Shown here one piece after another: positions 4,664-19,198 of a DNA stretch of 64,000 bases (position 1 is its first letter; each line of letters begins with the position of its first letter). This stretch comes from Psychrobium sp. MM17-31. Lineage in GTDB: Bacteria; Pseudomonadota; Gammaproteobacteria; Enterobacterales; Psychrobiaceae. Both the position numbers and the translations under genes were made by a program. The notes under the pieces were generated by a model. The model was given only the letters and a program-made list of their open reading frames with translations. It had not been told where the DNA came from and searched no databases. The stretch covers positions 1-64,000 of the forward strand of contig NZ_JAKRGA010000007.1 of assembly GCF_022347785.1 (NCBI RefSeq). Reading direction: 5' to 3'.

Positions 4664-4906
4664 TTGTTTTTGTAATGTGTTCTGAGATCAAAGTAATAGC
4701 CTAAATGTAGACGAATATTTTTAGTTGCATCGGACAAATTCATTAATAAATTGAATAGCGCAACTTTTTCACGTAAAAAGAGGCAACTTCCTTGTTGCTG
4801 TTTCGCTTACCGTTATTATTGGCATTGATAACAATTGGCAGGTGACTCAGTTGTGGATTGGTGGAGAGCCACATAAATTATAATAATTATAGGTCTTGGA
4901 GGCTTC

Positions 4907-6226
4907 ATGAATACTGCGGTATCGACAAGCAAACCTAACCGATCGACAGTTATGCCGATGGTTATTATTGGTGTGCTGTTTTTTATTTTTGGTTTTGTAA
5001 CTTGGCTTAACGGATCGTTAATTCCGTTTTTAAAAATTGTATGTGAACTCAACGAATTCCAAGCGCTATTTGTTACTTTTGCATTCTATATCGCCTATAC
5101 GGTGATGGCGTTTCCAATGTCGTTTATCCTTAATAAAACCGGATATAAAAACGGTATGGCGATTGGTTTAGGTATTATGGTGGTTGGTTCGCTCGCCTTT
5201 ATCCCAGCGGCACAAAGCGCTAACTACGCTATCTTTTTGATTGCATTGTTTATTTTAGGAGCAGGTCTAACAATTCTACAAACTGCTTCAAATCCTTACT
5301 TGGTAAAAATTGGTCCTGAAGAAAGCGCAGCGATGCGTATTTCAATTATGGGTATAATTAACAAAACCGCAGGCGTTGTTGTGCCGGCGGTTTTTACTGT
5401 GCTGATTTTAGCTGACATGGGAGATGTTTCGGAGCAAGCTGTTGCCGCTATGGCAGAAGAGCAGCGTCAAGCGACGATTACTGAATTGTCGAACAAGCTA
5501 GTAGTGCCATATATTTACATGGCAATTGCGTTAGCATTTTTGATTGCATTAGTGAAATTTTCCTCGTTACCTGAATTAGATTTAGAGTCTGAAGCGAGTG
5601 ACAGCGATGAAAAAGGCAGCGTATTTGCTTTCCCACAAGTGGTATTGGGGGCTATTGCACTATTTGCTTATGTGGGCGTTGAAGTCATTGCTGGCGATAC
5701 CATAGGTCTTTATGGTTCTGGGTTAGGTGTTGCAAACTTTGCAGCATTAACTTCTTACACCATGATGTTTATGGTGTTTGGTTATATTATCGGTGTTACT
5801 TGTATTCCGCGATTTATCTCGCAGCAACAAGCGCTTATAGGTTCTGCAATCGCGGGTTCACTGTGTATTGTTGGCGTTGTCTTTGGCTCACAAACATCAA
5901 CCGCTATTGCCGATGTACTTTGGGGTTGGACTGGAATAAGTGTAGTGCCTGATTCGGTAACCTTTGTTGCATTGATGGGCTTGGCGCATGCCTTGGTCTG
6001 GCCATCGGTTTGGCCACTGGCACTTGATGGTATGGGTAAGTTCACCTCACAAGCGTCAGCGTTATTGATTATGGGGATTTCAGGTGGCGCTATTTTACCG
6101 CTGGTTTTCGGCAAAGTAGCGCATGTGATGAATGATACTCAAGTCGCTTATTGGGTTGGCTTACCTTGTTATCTATTCATTTTGTTCTACGCCTTAAAAG
6201 GCCACAAAATGAAATCATGGAAATAA
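4907..6226 (+). CDS. MFS sugar transporter, FucP/GluP-like
   Basis: The 439-residue protein has about 12 hydrophobic segments. It starts VIIGVLFFIFGFVTWLNGSL, the signature of the fucose/glucose-galactose permease branch of the MFS, and contains QTASNPYLVKIGP, also typical of that branch. It should be an inner-membrane sugar:H+ or Na+ symporter. A GGAGG lies just before the ATG. It is divergent from the TBDR at 1607-4663, which fits a coordinated sugar-uptake unit; no regulator of the LacI type is adjacent. It overlaps the end of oxyR by 12 bases in convergent orientation. Exact sugar specificity cannot be told. Confidence 0.9.
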   Translation: MNTAVSTSKPNRSTVMPMVIIGVLFFIFGFVTWLNGSLIPFLKIVCELNEFQALFVTFAFYIAYTVMAFPMSFILNKTGYKNGMAIGLGIMVVGSLAFIPAAQSANYAIFLIALFILGAGLTILQTASNPYLVKIGPEESAAMRISIMGIINKTAGVVVPAVFTVLILADMGDVSEQAVAAMAEEQRQATITELSNKLVVPYIYMAIALAFLIALVKFSSLPELDLESEASDSDEKGSVFAFPQVVLGAIALFAYVGVEVIAGDTIGLYGSGLGVANFAALTSYTMMFMVFGYIIGVTCIPRFISQQQALIGSAIAGSLCIVGVVFGSQTSTAIADVLWGWTGISVVPDSVTFVALMGLAHALVWPSVWPLALDGMGKFTSQASALLIMGISGGAILPLVFGKVAHVMNDTQVAYWVGLPCYLFILFYALKGHKMKSWK

Positions 6227-7114
6227 AGGCTTAGCCGCTTCACGAATGACACTGACGATTTTTCTTACGCAGTGCATTCGCGAATAATTTGGTCTAATGA
6301 CTAATGAAATTTTGCGAGTCGGTTGTGGCTCGCTAAATGGCAAATAAGCAATCGTATTATTGGTGTTTATTTGTGTTGTGGCTAACGCTGGTAACAGCGT
6401 GATGCCTGCGCCACTGGCGACCATGTGGCGCAGTGTTTCTAAACTTGTTGCTTGAAAACTGGTATCTTCTTTAGCGCCCGCTGAGAAACAATATCCCATC
6501 GCTTGATCTTTCAAACAATGCCCATCTTCTAACGTCAGTATTTTATACTCGTGCAAGTGATGTAATGATAAATCTTGTTGCGTCGTCAACGGGTGCTCGC
6601 TCGGAGCGGCCAACACTAACGGCTCGTCAAACAAGTCGTAACATTCAAATTTATCCATTTCTTCTAGATACGGTAGCACTAACACATCGAGCTTGCCCTC
6701 ATCGAGTTTTTGCAGCAAAACCTTGGTTTGATTTTCGTGTAATAAGAATTGCACTTTTGGCAGCTCACTCGATAGCGCAGGCATGATGTGGGGGAGCAAA
6801 TAAGGCGCTAGTGTTGGGATCAAACCCATGTGTATATCGCCGGCGAGAGGATCGAGTAAATCTTTGGCTTGGCGCTCAAAATCTTGAGCCGCATTCAACA
6901 CTTTGCGTGCATCAATCACCAACTTTTCACCCGCAGGCGTTAACATCACATTGTGACGATGGCGCTCTACTAACTGCAATCCAAGTTGTTCTTCTAGCTT
7001 CATGAGTTGACCACTAAGCGTCGGTTGGCTGACATAGCATGCACTGGCGGCTTTACCAAAATGTCTGTGTTGCTCTATGGCATCGAGGTATTCAAGATCG
7101 CGTAGTTTTATCAT
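6215..7114 (-). CDS. oxyR: Hydrogen peroxide-sensing LysR-type regulator OxyR
   Basis: The 299-residue protein has an N-terminal winged helix-turn-helix (RDLEYLDAIEQHRHFGKAA, SQPTLSGQLMKLE) and a LysR effector domain. The redox centre is clear: LEDGHCLKDQAMGYCF carries Cys200 and Cys209, matching the E. coli Cys199/Cys208 disulfide pair, followed by the OxyR-typical TSLETLRHMVASGAGITLLP. Oxidation by peroxide forms the disulfide and activates catalase and peroxiredoxin genes. No catalase, ahp or dps gene lies in this window, so its targets are elsewhere. Confidence 0.96.
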   Translation of the reverse strand: MIKLRDLEYLDAIEQHRHFGKAASACYVSQPTLSGQLMKLEEQLGLQLVERHRHNVMLTPAGEKLVIDARKVLNAAQDFERQAKDLLDPLAGDIHMGLIPTLAPYLLPHIMPALSSELPKVQFLLHENQTKVLLQKLDEGKLDVLVLPYLEEMDKFECYDLFDEPLVLAAPSEHPLTTQQDLSLHHLHEYKILTLEDGHCLKDQAMGYCFSAGAKEDTSFQATSLETLRHMVASGAGITLLPALATTQINTNNTIAYLPFSEPQPTRKISLVIRPNYSRMHCVRKIVSVIREAAKPLFP

Positions 7115-7271
7115 CGTTACTCACTATTTAAATCGAATTTATGATTTGTTAAATCTATAGTAATTGAATTATAGATAATTGCTCAACACAAATTGTAACA
7201 GGACAACACTTGGGCTTTTTGTAAAAACTCGCTAGCTTAAAATATATTCCTCGTTTATGGAGCGCAATCTT

Positions 7272-15699: not shown

Positions 15700-16692
15700 A
15701 TGGCGACCATTGGACATTACTATATAAAATCATGTATTAGTGCAGCGGCTTTTAAGGGCGTAGACACTAAAGCGCTTATGATGATGGCTGGTATTGCGCC
15801 AAGTAGTATTGCTAAAAAACAGCGGGTGACAGATCATTGCATGGCGACGTTACTCAATTATTTGATCGAACATACGCAAGACGCTTTTTTCGGTTTTTCG
15901 AAACAAGCGGTGCCGCCGAAGTTTTATCAGTTGTTGCTTAGTGGTGTTGTTATGGCGAAAACCGTTGAGCAGGCGATAACCACGCTACAAACTGCTTTAG
16001 CGTTGGCTGGATGCCAACTTGAAATGCGTTGTGAAGAGAAACAGGTGTGTTTATCGCTATCGCATCAGCACGACGATCCCGCGCATTTTTTGCAAGAATA
16101 TTTGATGGTGTTTGTCCACCGGTTACTGTGCTGGCTAGCCAATAAGACCATAGTGCTTAACGGTGCTAGTGTTGCCTATGAGCCGGCAGATTATCAAATG
16201 GAGTTTGCGCTGTTATTTCGTTGTCAGACTGCCACCAATCAAACCCAAAACGCGATCTATTTTGATGAATCGATCTTGTTGTGGCCTGTGTTGCAAGCGC
16301 CGGAAAGTATCTATCAAGTCATCGAACAATTTCCGCTGATAGTGTTACGCTTTCCTGAATCTGATAACGCCTTAGACCAACGAGTCTACGGTTTACTCAA
16401 ACGCTATTTCACTCAACATAGTAATTTACCCGATGCTAATTACATCGCTCATGCACTGAATATGAGTAGTGCCACCTTGAGACGTCAATTGGGAAATCTA
16501 GAAACGAGCTTTTCTCAACTTAAGACAGAATTTCGCCAAGAGCAGGCGATGCGTTTGTTGCGCAATCCTCAAAATACCATTGAGGATATCGCTAGCCAGT
16601 TGGATTACAGTGAAGCTCGAGCCTTTTCGCGAGTATTCAAGCAGTGGACGGAGCTGACGCCATCGCAATATCGCCAGCTGTTTTTGCCCTAG
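15700..16692 (+). CDS. AraC-family regulator with Arabinose_bd-like N-terminal domain
   Basis: The 330-residue protein has an N-terminal ligand domain of the type found in OruR/ArgR-like regulators (about residues 15-200) and a C-terminal AraC DNA-binding domain: first HTH ANYIAHALNMSSATLRRQL, second HTH TIEDIASQLDYSEARAFSRV, then FKQWTELTPSQYR. GGGAGG precedes the ATG. It may control the neighbouring receptor or the convergent MipA-like gene, but no direct evidence is visible. The end overlaps the convergent gene at 16689 by four bases. Confidence 0.9.
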   Translation: MATIGHYYIKSCISAAAFKGVDTKALMMMAGIAPSSIAKKQRVTDHCMATLLNYLIEHTQDAFFGFSKQAVPPKFYQLLLSGVVMAKTVEQAITTLQTALALAGCQLEMRCEEKQVCLSLSHQHDDPAHFLQEYLMVFVHRLLCWLANKTIVLNGASVAYEPADYQMEFALLFRCQTATNQTQNAIYFDESILLWPVLQAPESIYQVIEQFPLIVLRFPESDNALDQRVYGLLKRYFTQHSNLPDANYIAHALNMSSATLRRQLGNLETSFSQLKTEFRQEQAMRLLRNPQNTIEDIASQLDYSEARAFSRVFKQWTELTPSQYRQLFLP

Positions 16693-17468
16693 AAAAACTT
16701 AGAAAACATCAAGCGAATCGCTAAGCTTGAATCGCCGTCGGTTAATGGACTGTCGCTAATATTGCTGTCAAACCATGTGTTTTCTATATTTATAGAGGTA
16801 ATGCCGCCAAAGAAGATTGGTGTCATGACGGAAACGCCTAATGTTTTATTGAGCGCGCTATCGCCAGTGTACTGCATGCGGTTTGCAGTGGCTTCATGTG
16901 CTGCGACGCCGTAGTAATAATCCACATGATTGCTATCGACATAGCTTAAACCAACACTTGGCTCCACAAACACAGGGCCAAAGCGCATCATCTTACCAAA
17001 GGTAGATTTGACTTCTAGGCCGTCTGATTTTCCCAGCACGTCACGCATAATTGATGTATCGATTTTCCAATCGTTATGCTGATAGGTTAGTCCTATTCCC
17101 GCGTCTAGCGACAGTTTGCGCTCATCCATACCATCGAAGATATCAGCATCATCCGCTTCAAACCCACCAAAGCGCGGTGCGGCTTGTAACGAGAACTTGA
17201 AGTGTTCGTCACGCCACGCGTGGTAGCTAACGAAGGGGCCGAATGCTGAAAACTTTTCGCTGCGATAGCCAATAATCGGCAAGGGGATCACAGGTTGATC
17301 GTGATCTTTATAAATGCCGTTATCGATGCCGATACCCGCACCATAAATAAAACCGAATTTCTCCATGCGCTGACGATTGTCACCGCGTTTGTCTTGTTCT
17401 TTGGCGTAAGCAAAGCTCGTCGTTAGCGATGAGATGATTAAGGCGGAAATTAGTGTTAATCGCTTCAT
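16689..17468 (-). CDS. MipA/OmpV-family outer-membrane protein
   Basis: The 259-residue product has a signal peptide (MKRLTLISALIISSLTTSFAYA) and a MipA/OmpV-like barrel: GFIYGAGIGIDNGIYKDHD, then IPLPIIGYRSEKF early, and a terminal strand ending MFSKFF. Family members are outer-membrane barrels, one linked to murein-synthesis scaffolding (MipA), others induced by osmolarity (OmpV). AGGAAA lies just before the ATG at 17468; an upstream in-frame extension lacks such a site and would bury the signal peptide. It is transcribed convergently with the AraC gene. Confidence 0.87.
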   Translation of the reverse strand: MKRLTLISALIISSLTTSFAYAKEQDKRGDNRQRMEKFGFIYGAGIGIDNGIYKDHDQPVIPLPIIGYRSEKFSAFGPFVSYHAWRDEHFKFSLQAAPRFGGFEADDADIFDGMDERKLSLDAGIGLTYQHNDWKIDTSIMRDVLGKSDGLEVKSTFGKMMRFGPVFVEPSVGLSYVDSNHVDYYYGVAAHEATANRMQYTGDSALNKTLGVSVMTPIFFGGITSINIENTWFDSNISDSPLTDGDSSLAIRLMFSKFF

Positions 17469-17659
17469 GGTGGTTTCCTGTGATGAAAGGCGATTAGTGA
17501 TACGCTGCGTATCGCTAAATTGATCAAAAAAATCAATCATAAAGCGATTGCTGATAATAAAAAACAAACATTACATTTTATTACAATTGCAGGTTGTTAT
17601 AGCCGAGATTGCCAGTGCTATATTCAACCAACAAAGTGCGTGAGAAGCCGTAATAGACA

Positions 17660-18106
17660 ATGACAAATGATGACATTATTGAGTCGCAATACCTATGGTG
17701 GTGTGACAAAGAGCCTGCATTGCTTAACAAGCTAAGCACTGATTTGTCGATTCGGTTTAGTGAATTGCCTGCGGTAGATATGCTGCTAAAAGAAGCCTTA
17801 AAGTTTTTGTTTATCGCAGGACGCGCTGGCGATACTGACACGCGAGAGCGCTTTACACCAAGTTTGATAATCGATGAGGTGTGGCACGGATTAATTTTAC
17901 ATACCAAAACTTATAGTGAATTTTGCCACGCGTTTTATGGCCATTTTATTCATCATCATCCTGGTGGCGATGACGAGGAAAATGCTGCGCAATTGCGTAG
18001 TACGCTTTATGCATTGCAGCGGGAATTTGGAACGTTAAATTCACAGTTTTGGCCAACTGATGCAGTGCTCAATATTGCTGGGCAATGTAGCAGTTGCGAA
18101 ACCTAA
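17660..18106 (+). CDS. Small protein with a GRDP/DUF1399-like WH motif
   Basis: The 148-residue product has the segment DEVWHGLILHTKTYSEFC followed by GHFIHHHPGG. This Asp-x-x-Trp-His ... Tyr ... Cys ... His-x-x-Pro layout resembles that of glycine-rich-domain (DUF1399-type) proteins. The many His/Cys/Asp residues could bind a metal, but no function is established. It ends in CSSCET, a CxxC close to the C-terminus that echoes the Ser/Cys tail of the next gene 30 bases downstream. The two are probably co-transcribed. No signal peptide is present. Confidence 0.7.
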   Translation: MTNDDIIESQYLWWCDKEPALLNKLSTDLSIRFSELPAVDMLLKEALKFLFIAGRAGDTDTRERFTPSLIIDEVWHGLILHTKTYSEFCHAFYGHFIHHHPGGDDEENAAQLRSTLYALQREFGTLNSQFWPTDAVLNIAGQCSSCET

Positions 18107-18136
18107 CCTGTTTTTAGATCTGAAAAGGGAGTTATT

Positions 18137-19198
18137 ATGATTTTTGAATCAAAGATTGATTTACACCTTCAGCGCGACAGTGAATTGGCGCGTAAAAAAC
18201 CAACCAAGATTTTTGCAAAATTCTTGTATGCACTTACCAGTGGTAATTATGGAGAGCTCAAAGAACAACAGCTCTTTACGGCGGTCGCTATAATGCAAGA
18301 GCTCAATAAGGTGATGATGAAAAAGGGCATCACTAATTTACAGCTGTTAGAAGTTGATGAGGTTGTTTATTACGAAGATCTCGACAATAAAGACAATGAT
18401 CTTGCCGAAGGCATGATGAATATAACGCTTAAACGGGATCACATTACTGCGCCTGAGTTTGAACACATGGCGCTAACCTTGTCCCATCCGCAAGATGACA
18501 TTGAGTACTTTATTGAAATCGATATTTCGCGAATTCACAAGCCAAACGATGCGCCTATCCATATTAAGATTTATGGCTATATAGATGCCTTTAAAAAAGC
18601 GAGTGATGAATCTGAAGAAGCCTTAAAAGCGCGTATTGGCAGTCATTTCTCGTCGCAAGAGAAATACGATGAAATGGTGCGTCGTTATCGCAGCCAATTT
18701 GACTCTTTTGTTTCTGGGCTTAATTTTGCCCTCAATGCACAGCTCCGAGTTAAAGAAGCACCGGTGGAAACCAGCAATGTTATCGTAAGGCCTGAGAATA
18801 AAGCACGTGCGTGGGATGACTCGTCACGAGTGCGTCGTCGTCATTATCGTCACAGTAACTGTGGTGATGTGATTTACCCATTAATGTGGTTGTCACTGAT
18901 GGATAATCACAGCATTACGCCGTCTGATGTCACTATTGAAGCGCCTGATGGTGAAGAATTAGGTGTCATTGCTGAAGGTGCGGAGGTTGATGCTGCAGAG
19001 CCGTTACTCAATGAAGATATCGCGCTGGATGATGCATTGGAAAGCTCGTCTTTTAGTGAGTCATCGACGTTAGATGACGACACTACAGCGGCAAGCAGTT
19101 GGCTGAGTGATATGGGGGACTTTAGTTCAGATAGTGGCTCGTCTGATAGCGGTTCATCGTGCAGCAGTTGCTCGTCTTGTAGTAGTTGTTCTTCTTAG
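18137..19198 (+). CDS. Unknown protein with a C-terminal Ser/Cys repeat tail
   Basis: Not recognised. The 353-residue protein has a soluble, mixed alpha/beta N-terminal part (about 1-230), a basic patch RVRRRHYRHSNCGD near 235, a short hydrophobic stretch (VIYPLMWLSLM), an acidic linker (about 265-325), and a tail ending in four Cys-Ser-Ser units (CSSCSSCSSCSS). Regular CxxC spacing suggests metal or thiol chemistry, or a modified or anchoring tail. GGGAG precedes the ATG. It follows the WH-motif gene, whose product also ends in CSSC, so a two-protein system is likely; its role is unknown. Confidence 0.72.
   Translation: MIFESKIDLHLQRDSELARKKPTKIFAKFLYALTSGNYGELKEQQLFTAVAIMQELNKVMMKKGITNLQLLEVDEVVYYEDLDNKDNDLAEGMMNITLKRDHITAPEFEHMALTLSHPQDDIEYFIEIDISRIHKPNDAPIHIKIYGYIDAFKKASDESEEALKARIGSHFSSQEKYDEMVRRYRSQFDSFVSGLNFALNAQLRVKEAPVETSNVIVRPENKARAWDDSSRVRRRHYRHSNCGDVIYPLMWLSLMDNHSITPSDVTIEAPDGEELGVIAEGAEVDAAEPLLNEDIALDDALESSSFSESSTLDDDTTAASSWLSDMGDFSSDSGSSDSGSSCSSCSSCSSCSS

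Follow-up and report, generated by a model that had tools for sequence, protein, structure and literature searches.

Cysteine-rich ends on whole proteins have a published precedent in the TIGR04222 family, some members of which have been proposed as protein-sized substrates of MNIO enzymes (PMC12452194); these Cys-tailed TIGR04222/MNIO proteins are the nearest published relative of the system described here. The term 'GRDP' does not occur in the main text of that paper. Literature on the DUF1399/GRDP-like family itself consists mostly of plant studies, as far as titles and the openings of abstracts tell, and in the open-licence literature, seen to the same depth, no bacterial function for the family was found. 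Here, we describe a pair of adjacent genes, A and B, whose products both end in Cys-Ser-Ser-type tails. They lie in a 64,000-nucleotide stretch of DNA from Psychrobium sp. MM17-31 (contig NZ_JAKRGA010000007.1 of assembly GCF_022347785.1, positions 1 to 64,000 of the forward strand), which we call the window. The initial annotation of this stretch knew of no described system like the pair, and within the open-licence literature searched we found none either. We propose, with confidence that stops a little short of even, that A matures or metal-loads the Cys tail of B in the fashion of RiPPs, making the pair a two-gene tail-maturation system whose chemistry is inferred. The genes themselves and their co-inheritance are matters of direct observation.

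The features of the locus are collected in the table below. The reading frames are as first annotated, with two genes, CSSCET and (CSS)4 tails, an acidic linker and a gap of exactly 30 bases. A ends in AGQCSSCET, and the C-terminus of B is CSSCSSCSSCSS (end) / DSGSSDSGSSCSSCSSCSSCSS, preceded by a linker rich in Asp, Glu and Ser. The GGGAG element sits 5 nt upstream of the ATG of B, and since no terminator-like site was found on the plus strand between the two genes, their co-transcription is likely, though not demonstrated. B had been called a protein of unknown kind, and so it remains: Pfam, NCBIfam and PDB searches returned nothing beyond chance level, and the TIGR04222 domain (NCBIfam) is not present. 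A met in Pfam only a chance-level match to the unrelated Tenui_NCP (E 0.23; the score of 11.5 bits falls well below the cut-off of 27) and nothing above chance in NCBIfam. PDB searches with A3, A4, A8 and A11 gave no significant match. No known maturase family in Pfam or NCBIfam matched A or B above chance, neither protein resembles any known modifying enzyme, and the anti-phage defence models of PADLOC did not match the pair. Structure prediction, which the initial annotation had suggested, was of no help: the AlphaFold2 models are of low confidence (mean pLDDT 33.9 for B and 47.5 for A), and because they are unusable no catalytic site can be shown.

Features of the A-B locus (positions in the window)
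Feature	Position	Strand	Basis
Gene A, 148-residue WH (GRDP-like) protein	17660..18106	+	Open reading frame; B-adjacent orthologues in G007, G008 and G699
Core motif of A, D72-x2-W75-H76 ... Y85 ... C89 ... G94 ... H98-H99-x-P101	17873..17962	+	Alignment
CSSCET C-terminal tail of A	18086..18103	+	Both Cys invariant in 4/4 A proteins
GGGAG, likely ribosome-binding site of B	18127..18131	+	Sequence
Gene B, 353-residue protein of a family without a name	18137..19198	+	Open reading frame; homologues in other genomes
Body of B, conserved family-wide	18137..18964	+	19 invariant columns in 7 sequences
Acidic, Ser-rich linker of B	18965..19159	+	Sequence; poorly conserved
(Cys-Ser-Ser)4 C-terminal tail of B	19160..19195	+	Identical in 4/4 genus B proteins

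Among the 54 low-overlap window ORFs of at least 80 residues, B is the sole one with at least three Cys in its final 20 residues. At the window's frequencies of Cys (0.98%) and Ser (7.1%), a given (CSS)4 has a probability of 5.7e-18, and CSSC inside the last 10 residues is expected by chance in about 3e-6 per protein; a chance origin of the two tails is excluded. The A tails of the genus read CSSCET, CSSCDT and CSTCET, and that of G699, a genome outside the window's class, QCGSCD (CGSCD), with both Cys kept throughout and the surroundings varying. The codons of the B tail differ from those of the window at 6 of 12 positions in G007, 8 of 12 in G008 and 6 of 12 in G006, every difference being silent; some of the codon difference in G008 may reflect the gain and loss of a whole unit, the number of units still being four. 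In G699 the tail reads SSCSSCSSCSSCSSCS, with the CSS repeat kept and five Cys instead of four. The amino acids of the B tail are kept while its codons change and, between more distant homologues, the body changes too: the B tail matters, and these codon and residue comparisons demonstrate amino-acid-level constraint on it and on the two Cys of the A tail. Retention of the CSS repeat in a B protein only 32% identical to that of the window, together with the silent codon changes within the genus, favors maturation of the tail by A.

B occurs in four of nine genomes of the genus and full-length A in three, and in all three of these (G000, which is the window's genome, G007 and G008) the genes are adjacent; the contig of G006 starts within B, that is, the position of A lies beyond the contig end. 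The genus pairs occupy two genomic sites, since the flanks in G007 are those of the window and the contig flanks in G008 are unrelated, with none of the window neighbors accompanying the pair there. In G001 (82% complete) the corresponding stretch was read, and three of the right-hand window neighbors are present while the pair and its adjoining genes are absent. The G699 pair, uncovered by a WH-core search of 398 genomes of the phylum, consists of a 134-residue WH gene and, nine bases on, a 356-residue B, and its A is 33% identical to that of the window; the gaps in the other pairs are 30 bases in G000, 15 in G007 and 148 in G008. This pair places a two-gene system with both tails far from the genus. 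The known range of the pair is nevertheless narrow, with G699 the one genome outside the genus. B was not found in the rest of G699's order (78 genomes, G699 the sole carrier), in the window's order beyond the four genus members (295 genomes, one extra hit rejected), in the class beyond the window's own (321 genomes), or in phages and viral contigs. L027 (G057:C94, E 0.0035), considered as a B relative, was rejected, as its frame reads by eye as an FKBP-like isomerase. Among 72,556 records, B homologues 29% and 28% identical were found on two Persicobacter (Bacteroidota) plasmids, which together with the four genus genomes (window included) and G699 make up the B family. Both have acidic tails without Cys, the surrounding 12,906 and 12,834 bases that were read (plasmid stretches, not chromosomes) contain no WH gene, and none of three WH queries matched a Persicobacter plasmid.

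The initial annotation had suggested a search for adjacent homologues and would have been refuted had the genes never co-occurred elsewhere or the tails not been conserved. The search yielded the pairs of G007, G008 and G699, and neither refuting condition was fulfilled: A and B adjoin each other in 3 of 9 genomes of the genus and also in G699, the B tail is unchanged across the genus, and Cys tails stand on both proteins in G699. It could still be that the co-occurrence is incidental, involving two unrelated genes with low-complexity Ser/Cys ends, and the narrow range of the pair and the Persicobacter B genes without a nearby A would fit this. We consider it very improbable, given adjacency in four genomes that span two classes (G699 included) and show no fewer than three distinct surroundings of the pair, Cys tails on both proteins, and a B tail whose codons change only silently within the genus. 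The same adjacency in G000, G007, G008 and, in another class, G699, with the surroundings in G008 unrelated, counts for maturation of B's tail by A, as does the finding that the Persicobacter homologues have neither a Cys tail nor, in the stretches read, a WH gene close by.

A belongs to a much larger family. Profiles built from A reach a diverse set of bacterial proteins with the core D-x2-WH...Y...C...G...HHxP, whose residues A itself carries (its WH motif is DEVWH, residues 72-76). Residues D72, W75, H76, Y85, C89, H99 and P101 are identical in 29 of 29 aligned members; a wider set of 33 shows no variation in D, W, H, Y, the second His or P and conservation of 90% or more in the Cys, the Gly and the first His, and D-x2-WH is present in 110 of the 112 WH proteins scored in the four samples below. 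The motif had been labeled GRDP/DUF1399-like, and while the motif is real, the relationship of A to GRDP is, judged from sequence alone, only a remote one: 13 of 33 family cores match PF07173 weakly at E up to 1, the strongest of them with 1.8e-6, a single relative scores 17.3 bits against a cut-off of 22.7, and A itself has no match at E up to 1 and does not reach the gathering threshold. A Halomonas relative is annotated as a 'glycine-rich domain-containing protein-like' protein.

What ties this family to the tails is a count of cysteines. Scoring a protein as tailed if its last 40 residues hold at least three Cys, and taking control genes from the same regions, we find tails in 17/21 WH proteins versus 7/154 controls in a sample of the order, 14/38 versus 16/272 in the class, 15/28 versus 2/156 in the phylum, which served as replication, and 9/25 versus 8/75 on plasmids and phages. 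The phylum sample was searched with a tail-free core profile; the order and class search profiles included some tails, biasing those samples toward tailed hits. The counts are uncorrected for relatedness, with some genera contributing 2-3 rows, and the rule misses the Cys repeats of L177, for which it finds just 2 and 1 Cys among the last 40 residues. A replication in the order of G612 yielded only the three genomes already known. The order set comprises 20 regions with 21 WH proteins, from 25 places other than A (G063, G145, G106 and G149 left out). The class set comprises 40 regions for 43 of 45 places (G641 and the window left out), and 38 were scored, nothing scorable having come from L159, L171 or the second pieces of L166 and L169. 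For the phylum set, 6 of 35 places were excluded as already known (G057 twice, G002, G093, G000 and G658) and 26 regions were fetched, one of which (L200) gave no scored row, leaving 28 scored proteins; the set includes five genomes of the window's class and G699's own A. The plasmid and phage set consists of 25 loci picked by hand from the listed hits and is not a random draw. These data establish that WH domains are linked to Cys-rich C-terminal segments, and the excess in cis, seen in all four samples, supports the maturation of such tails. The initial annotation took the tails as a hint of metal, thiol or modification chemistry. This tie of the WH family to Cys-rich segments backs that view as a direction, and as no more than a direction, because which of these chemistries applies stays undecided.

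Some WH proteins without a tail of their own may instead have a partner that carries one. For WH proteins failing the cis rule, we scored small same-strand ORFs, largely free of overlap and within 300 bases, whose last 30 residues hold at least three Cys. In the class sample 14/24 tail-less WH proteins had such a neighbor versus 19/272 controls, and in the order sample 2/4 versus 16/154 (Fisher 0.06); the class pattern was not replicated in the phylum sample (2/13 versus 7/156) or on plasmids and phages (2/16 versus 7/75), and these two samples do not support a general trans rule. It was in the class sample that the pattern was first noticed, by eye, and the rule was set only afterwards, with those data already seen. 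An earlier rule was dropped when 73/272 control genes passed it via spurious overlapping ORFs. The rule misses some plausible cases: the seven-Cys peptide of L078, which when read from its longest start runs into the WH gene, and the peptides of L209 and L213, which have one Cys each and end in HCQGGGGW and HCQGGGSW. It may also count chance ORFs, as L169 in the class sample and both phylum trans hits look spurious. Many of the class-set partner peptides are alike, with ends recurring across genera (CNGKCASGVC, CSGHCQSGTC, CNGTCASGTC, CNGQCASGHC, CMSNCSGNCQS, CSGSCSSGTC), and a Piscirickettsia plasmid encodes a peptide with the same kind of Cys-rich end. The class-sample pattern speaks for maturation, and its failure to replicate against.

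Tail-less WH genes at L148, L149, L150, L152, L157, L161 and L207 are adjoined by peptides ending in C(N/S)GxCxSGxC or CMANCSGNC, near which Pfam recognizes TonB-type genes (L152, L161) and an ABC transporter gene (L157). On plasmids of Pseudomonas savastanoi (L209, 2236-2370) and Halomonas (L213, 2150-2278), peptides ending in GGGHCQGGG(G/S)W directly precede a WH gene and a gene for a 442-residue hypothetical protein that looks membrane-like by eye.

Sorted by eye, WH proteins include a group with an N-terminal hydrophobic stretch and ends of Cys/Gly repeats, a group in which the hydrophobic stretch is C-terminal and the ends read CGGCGG (one member being fused to TIGR04222), actinobacterial forms that mostly have Cys near the end, tail-less forms, and a group with HYPYFG and tails like RCxxH(A/S)CHxP(S/T)xCACRxPGAC(K/R). 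The last tail recurs nearly identically in different genera (L086, L087, L093, L096, L048, L049, L176 and L178) and is apparently under strong constraint. In a Streptomyces phage, Kromp, gene 33 (gp33; L057, 2854-3523) encodes a WH protein that carries CQHAPEC shortly before its C-terminus, and lies close to an integrase gene; there and at the Streptomyces plasmid loci L060, L062 and L064 the next gene is tiny and its product ends around RGF(V/I)(I/V). The tails of A and B could serve as anchoring or cross-linking devices, through S-acylation, disulfide multimers or a sorting signal, with A a structural partner. Their C-terminal position and regular repeat, and the Cys/Gly ends of the many WH relatives that look membrane-like by eye, are compatible with such a role, which we nonetheless judge improbable, as the conserved D/W/H/Y/C/HH core of A argues for a binding or catalytic site and not for a scaffold.

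Other family members carry their cysteines in tandem repeats. Two adjacent WH proteins at L177 (G907, 4872-7238) have 9 and 8 repeats of A(Y/F)CAGPH type toward their C-termini (AYCAGPHIGK), the Cupriavidus loci L214 and L216 have AYCARM repeats behind WH (AYCARMA in L214), and Variovorax L208 has AWCSLEA repeats. These arrangements bear on the main rival to our proposal, in which the tails stay unmodified and act as plain segments for metal binding (Cu, Zn, Fe or similar) or thiol buffering, with B in the role of storage or delivery protein and A in that of metallochaperone or of a partner that exchanges metal via its CSSC. The regular CxxC spacing of both tails, the conserved His, Cys and Asp of A and the lack of a recognizable modifying enzyme all agree with this rival, and according to PMC12452194 the Cys-rich bufferins and methanobactins handle copper, although these are modified peptides. 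We regard it as unlikely but in need of serious consideration. One Cys per repeat, as in AYCAGPHIGK, AYCARMA and AWCSLEA, fits processing better than chelation, as do the GG-leader peptides and oxygenase genes beside some WH relatives, and no metal-response gene was recognized by Pfam among the seven window neighbors tested. The fusion of Cys-bearing tandem repeats behind WH, as in L177 and L214, stands among the observations in favor of maturation.

The settings of some relatives are those of peptide maturation, which is a further point for our proposal. L078 (G272) has a TauD-family gene, WH, a seven-Cys GG-leader peptide, HlyD and a C39-type exporter; L083 (G057) has two WH genes, Cys-rich GG-leader peptides, HlyD and an exporter; and in L079 (G281) a GG-leader Cys peptide is followed by WH (the GG-leader, HlyD and C39 labels are readings of the sequences and not profile hits). 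By Pfam, TauD-family genes adjoin WH at L078, at L089 (G030) and at L182, a second WH locus of G699, and L217 is annotated as WH, SAM methyltransferase and TauD. A Rhodococcus ruber plasmid (L059, 2274-4567) carries in a row AlkB, WH and an ORF read, without profile basis, as ATP-grasp-like. On the mobilizable 7.9-kb E. coli plasmid pEC16II (L206, NZ_KU932034.1, 3605-6830), a WH protein with the Cys-rich tail CGCSGKGCGAGCSCNSR is encoded beside genes annotated as an ABC transporter and a cupin protein, and 25 Escherichia plasmid records were matched by a WH query.

Pfam identifies among the window neighbors of the pair itself a TonB receptor, an AraC regulator, MipA, a response regulator, DUF938, an M28 peptidase and, below cut-off, a DUF4397-like protein, with MipA, the response regulator and the DUF4397-like protein nearest to the pair. 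The MipA gene (16689-17567, opposite strand, upstream of A) has a relative adjoining the pair in G007; since it is absent beside the pair in the G008 contig, we do not count it as part of the system. No exporter was found among the seven neighbors tested by Pfam, which weighs against maturation. It weighs also against the idea that the B tail is a precursor whose cleavage and export would release a small product of RiPP type, for instance a bacteriocin or metallophore. GG-leader Cys peptides and peptide exporters do adjoin tail-less WH relatives at L078 and L083, as read from their sequences, but B has no visible leader motif, the nearest peptidase gene, that of M28, starts 3 kb downstream, and a conserved body of 340 residues would, we infer, be an unusual leader; we think it quite improbable that B is such a precursor. 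No MNIO gene lies beside the pair, the three of the window's genome being on contig C2 and the window on C7, and none was found in G699 at E 1e-10. A need for an MNIO enzyme was considered and rejected, given its absence from G699 and the lack of enrichment (41/49 genus and WH-set genomes versus 13/16 others).

Three strands, namely the constraint on the tail, the link between WH and Cys, and the maturation-type settings of relatives, lead us to propose that A matures or loads the tail of B. The WH core is linked to Cys-bearing C-terminal segments, which suggests that such segments are A's business, and the peptide-export operons and oxygenase-family neighbors of some relatives suggest maturation rather than mere binding. 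In this proposal, B would be a carrier of protein size, and its working part would be the final 12 residues, (Cys-Ser-Ser)4, held out on the flexible acidic linker. A, a small WH-domain protein, would recognize B and modify or charge the cysteines of its tail, probably using a metal ion held by the conserved Asp, His, Tyr, Cys and His-His, and the CSSC of A itself may serve as an intermediate carrier or be modified as a second substrate. The logic would be RiPP-like, with a whole protein as substrate. Direct action of A on B, its enzymatic nature, the metal cofactor and the end use in thiol or metal handling are all inferred; the chemistry has neither experiment nor structure behind it, and the choice between metal, thiol and modification is undecided. 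The lack of a usable structure, the lack of likeness to a known modifying enzyme and the rarity of the pair count against the proposal.

A broader claim, which we put forward more hesitantly, is that the bacterial WH (GRDP-like) domain is an unrecognized, widespread maturase or metal-loading module for Cys-bearing C-terminal segments, whose targets would be its own tail (in cis), small peptides (in trans) and, in A-B, a 353-residue carrier. If this were true, a large family of 'hypothetical' bacterial proteins, plasmid-borne ones included, would act as partners in the maturation of Cys-rich tails, and RiPP-type biology would gain a new class of maturase that takes whole proteins as substrate. 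The sequence rule of a WH core plus a Cys tail, in cis or in trans, would offer a way to seek new Cys-rich peptides, there would be a starting point for working out what the GRDP-like domain does, and pEC16II would provide a convenient, easily handled model for the WH family.

With the GRDP-like/DUF1399 family the pair shares the remote relationship of A's family, A itself having no PF07173 match. TIGR04222 membrane proteins resemble B in being protein-sized with a C-terminal Ser/Gly-rich segment interspersed with Cys (PMC12452194), and one WH protein (L144) carries a fused TIGR04222 domain (E 7.7e-40); B, however, is not a TIGR04222 protein, and the partner here is a WH protein. The operons of RiPP precursors and maturases are approached by the operon-like settings of L078, L079 and L083 beside Cys-rich peptides, whereas the Cys segment of the window pair terminates a 353-residue protein without an exporter among the neighbors tested. 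The pairing of precursor and maturation protein would have its counterpart in the conserved pair of G000, G007, G008 and G699, if the B tail is assumed to be a precursor segment. Like the bufferins of MNIO systems, which PMC12452194 links to copper, the A-B pair would join a Cys-rich segment to a dedicated partner that matures it.
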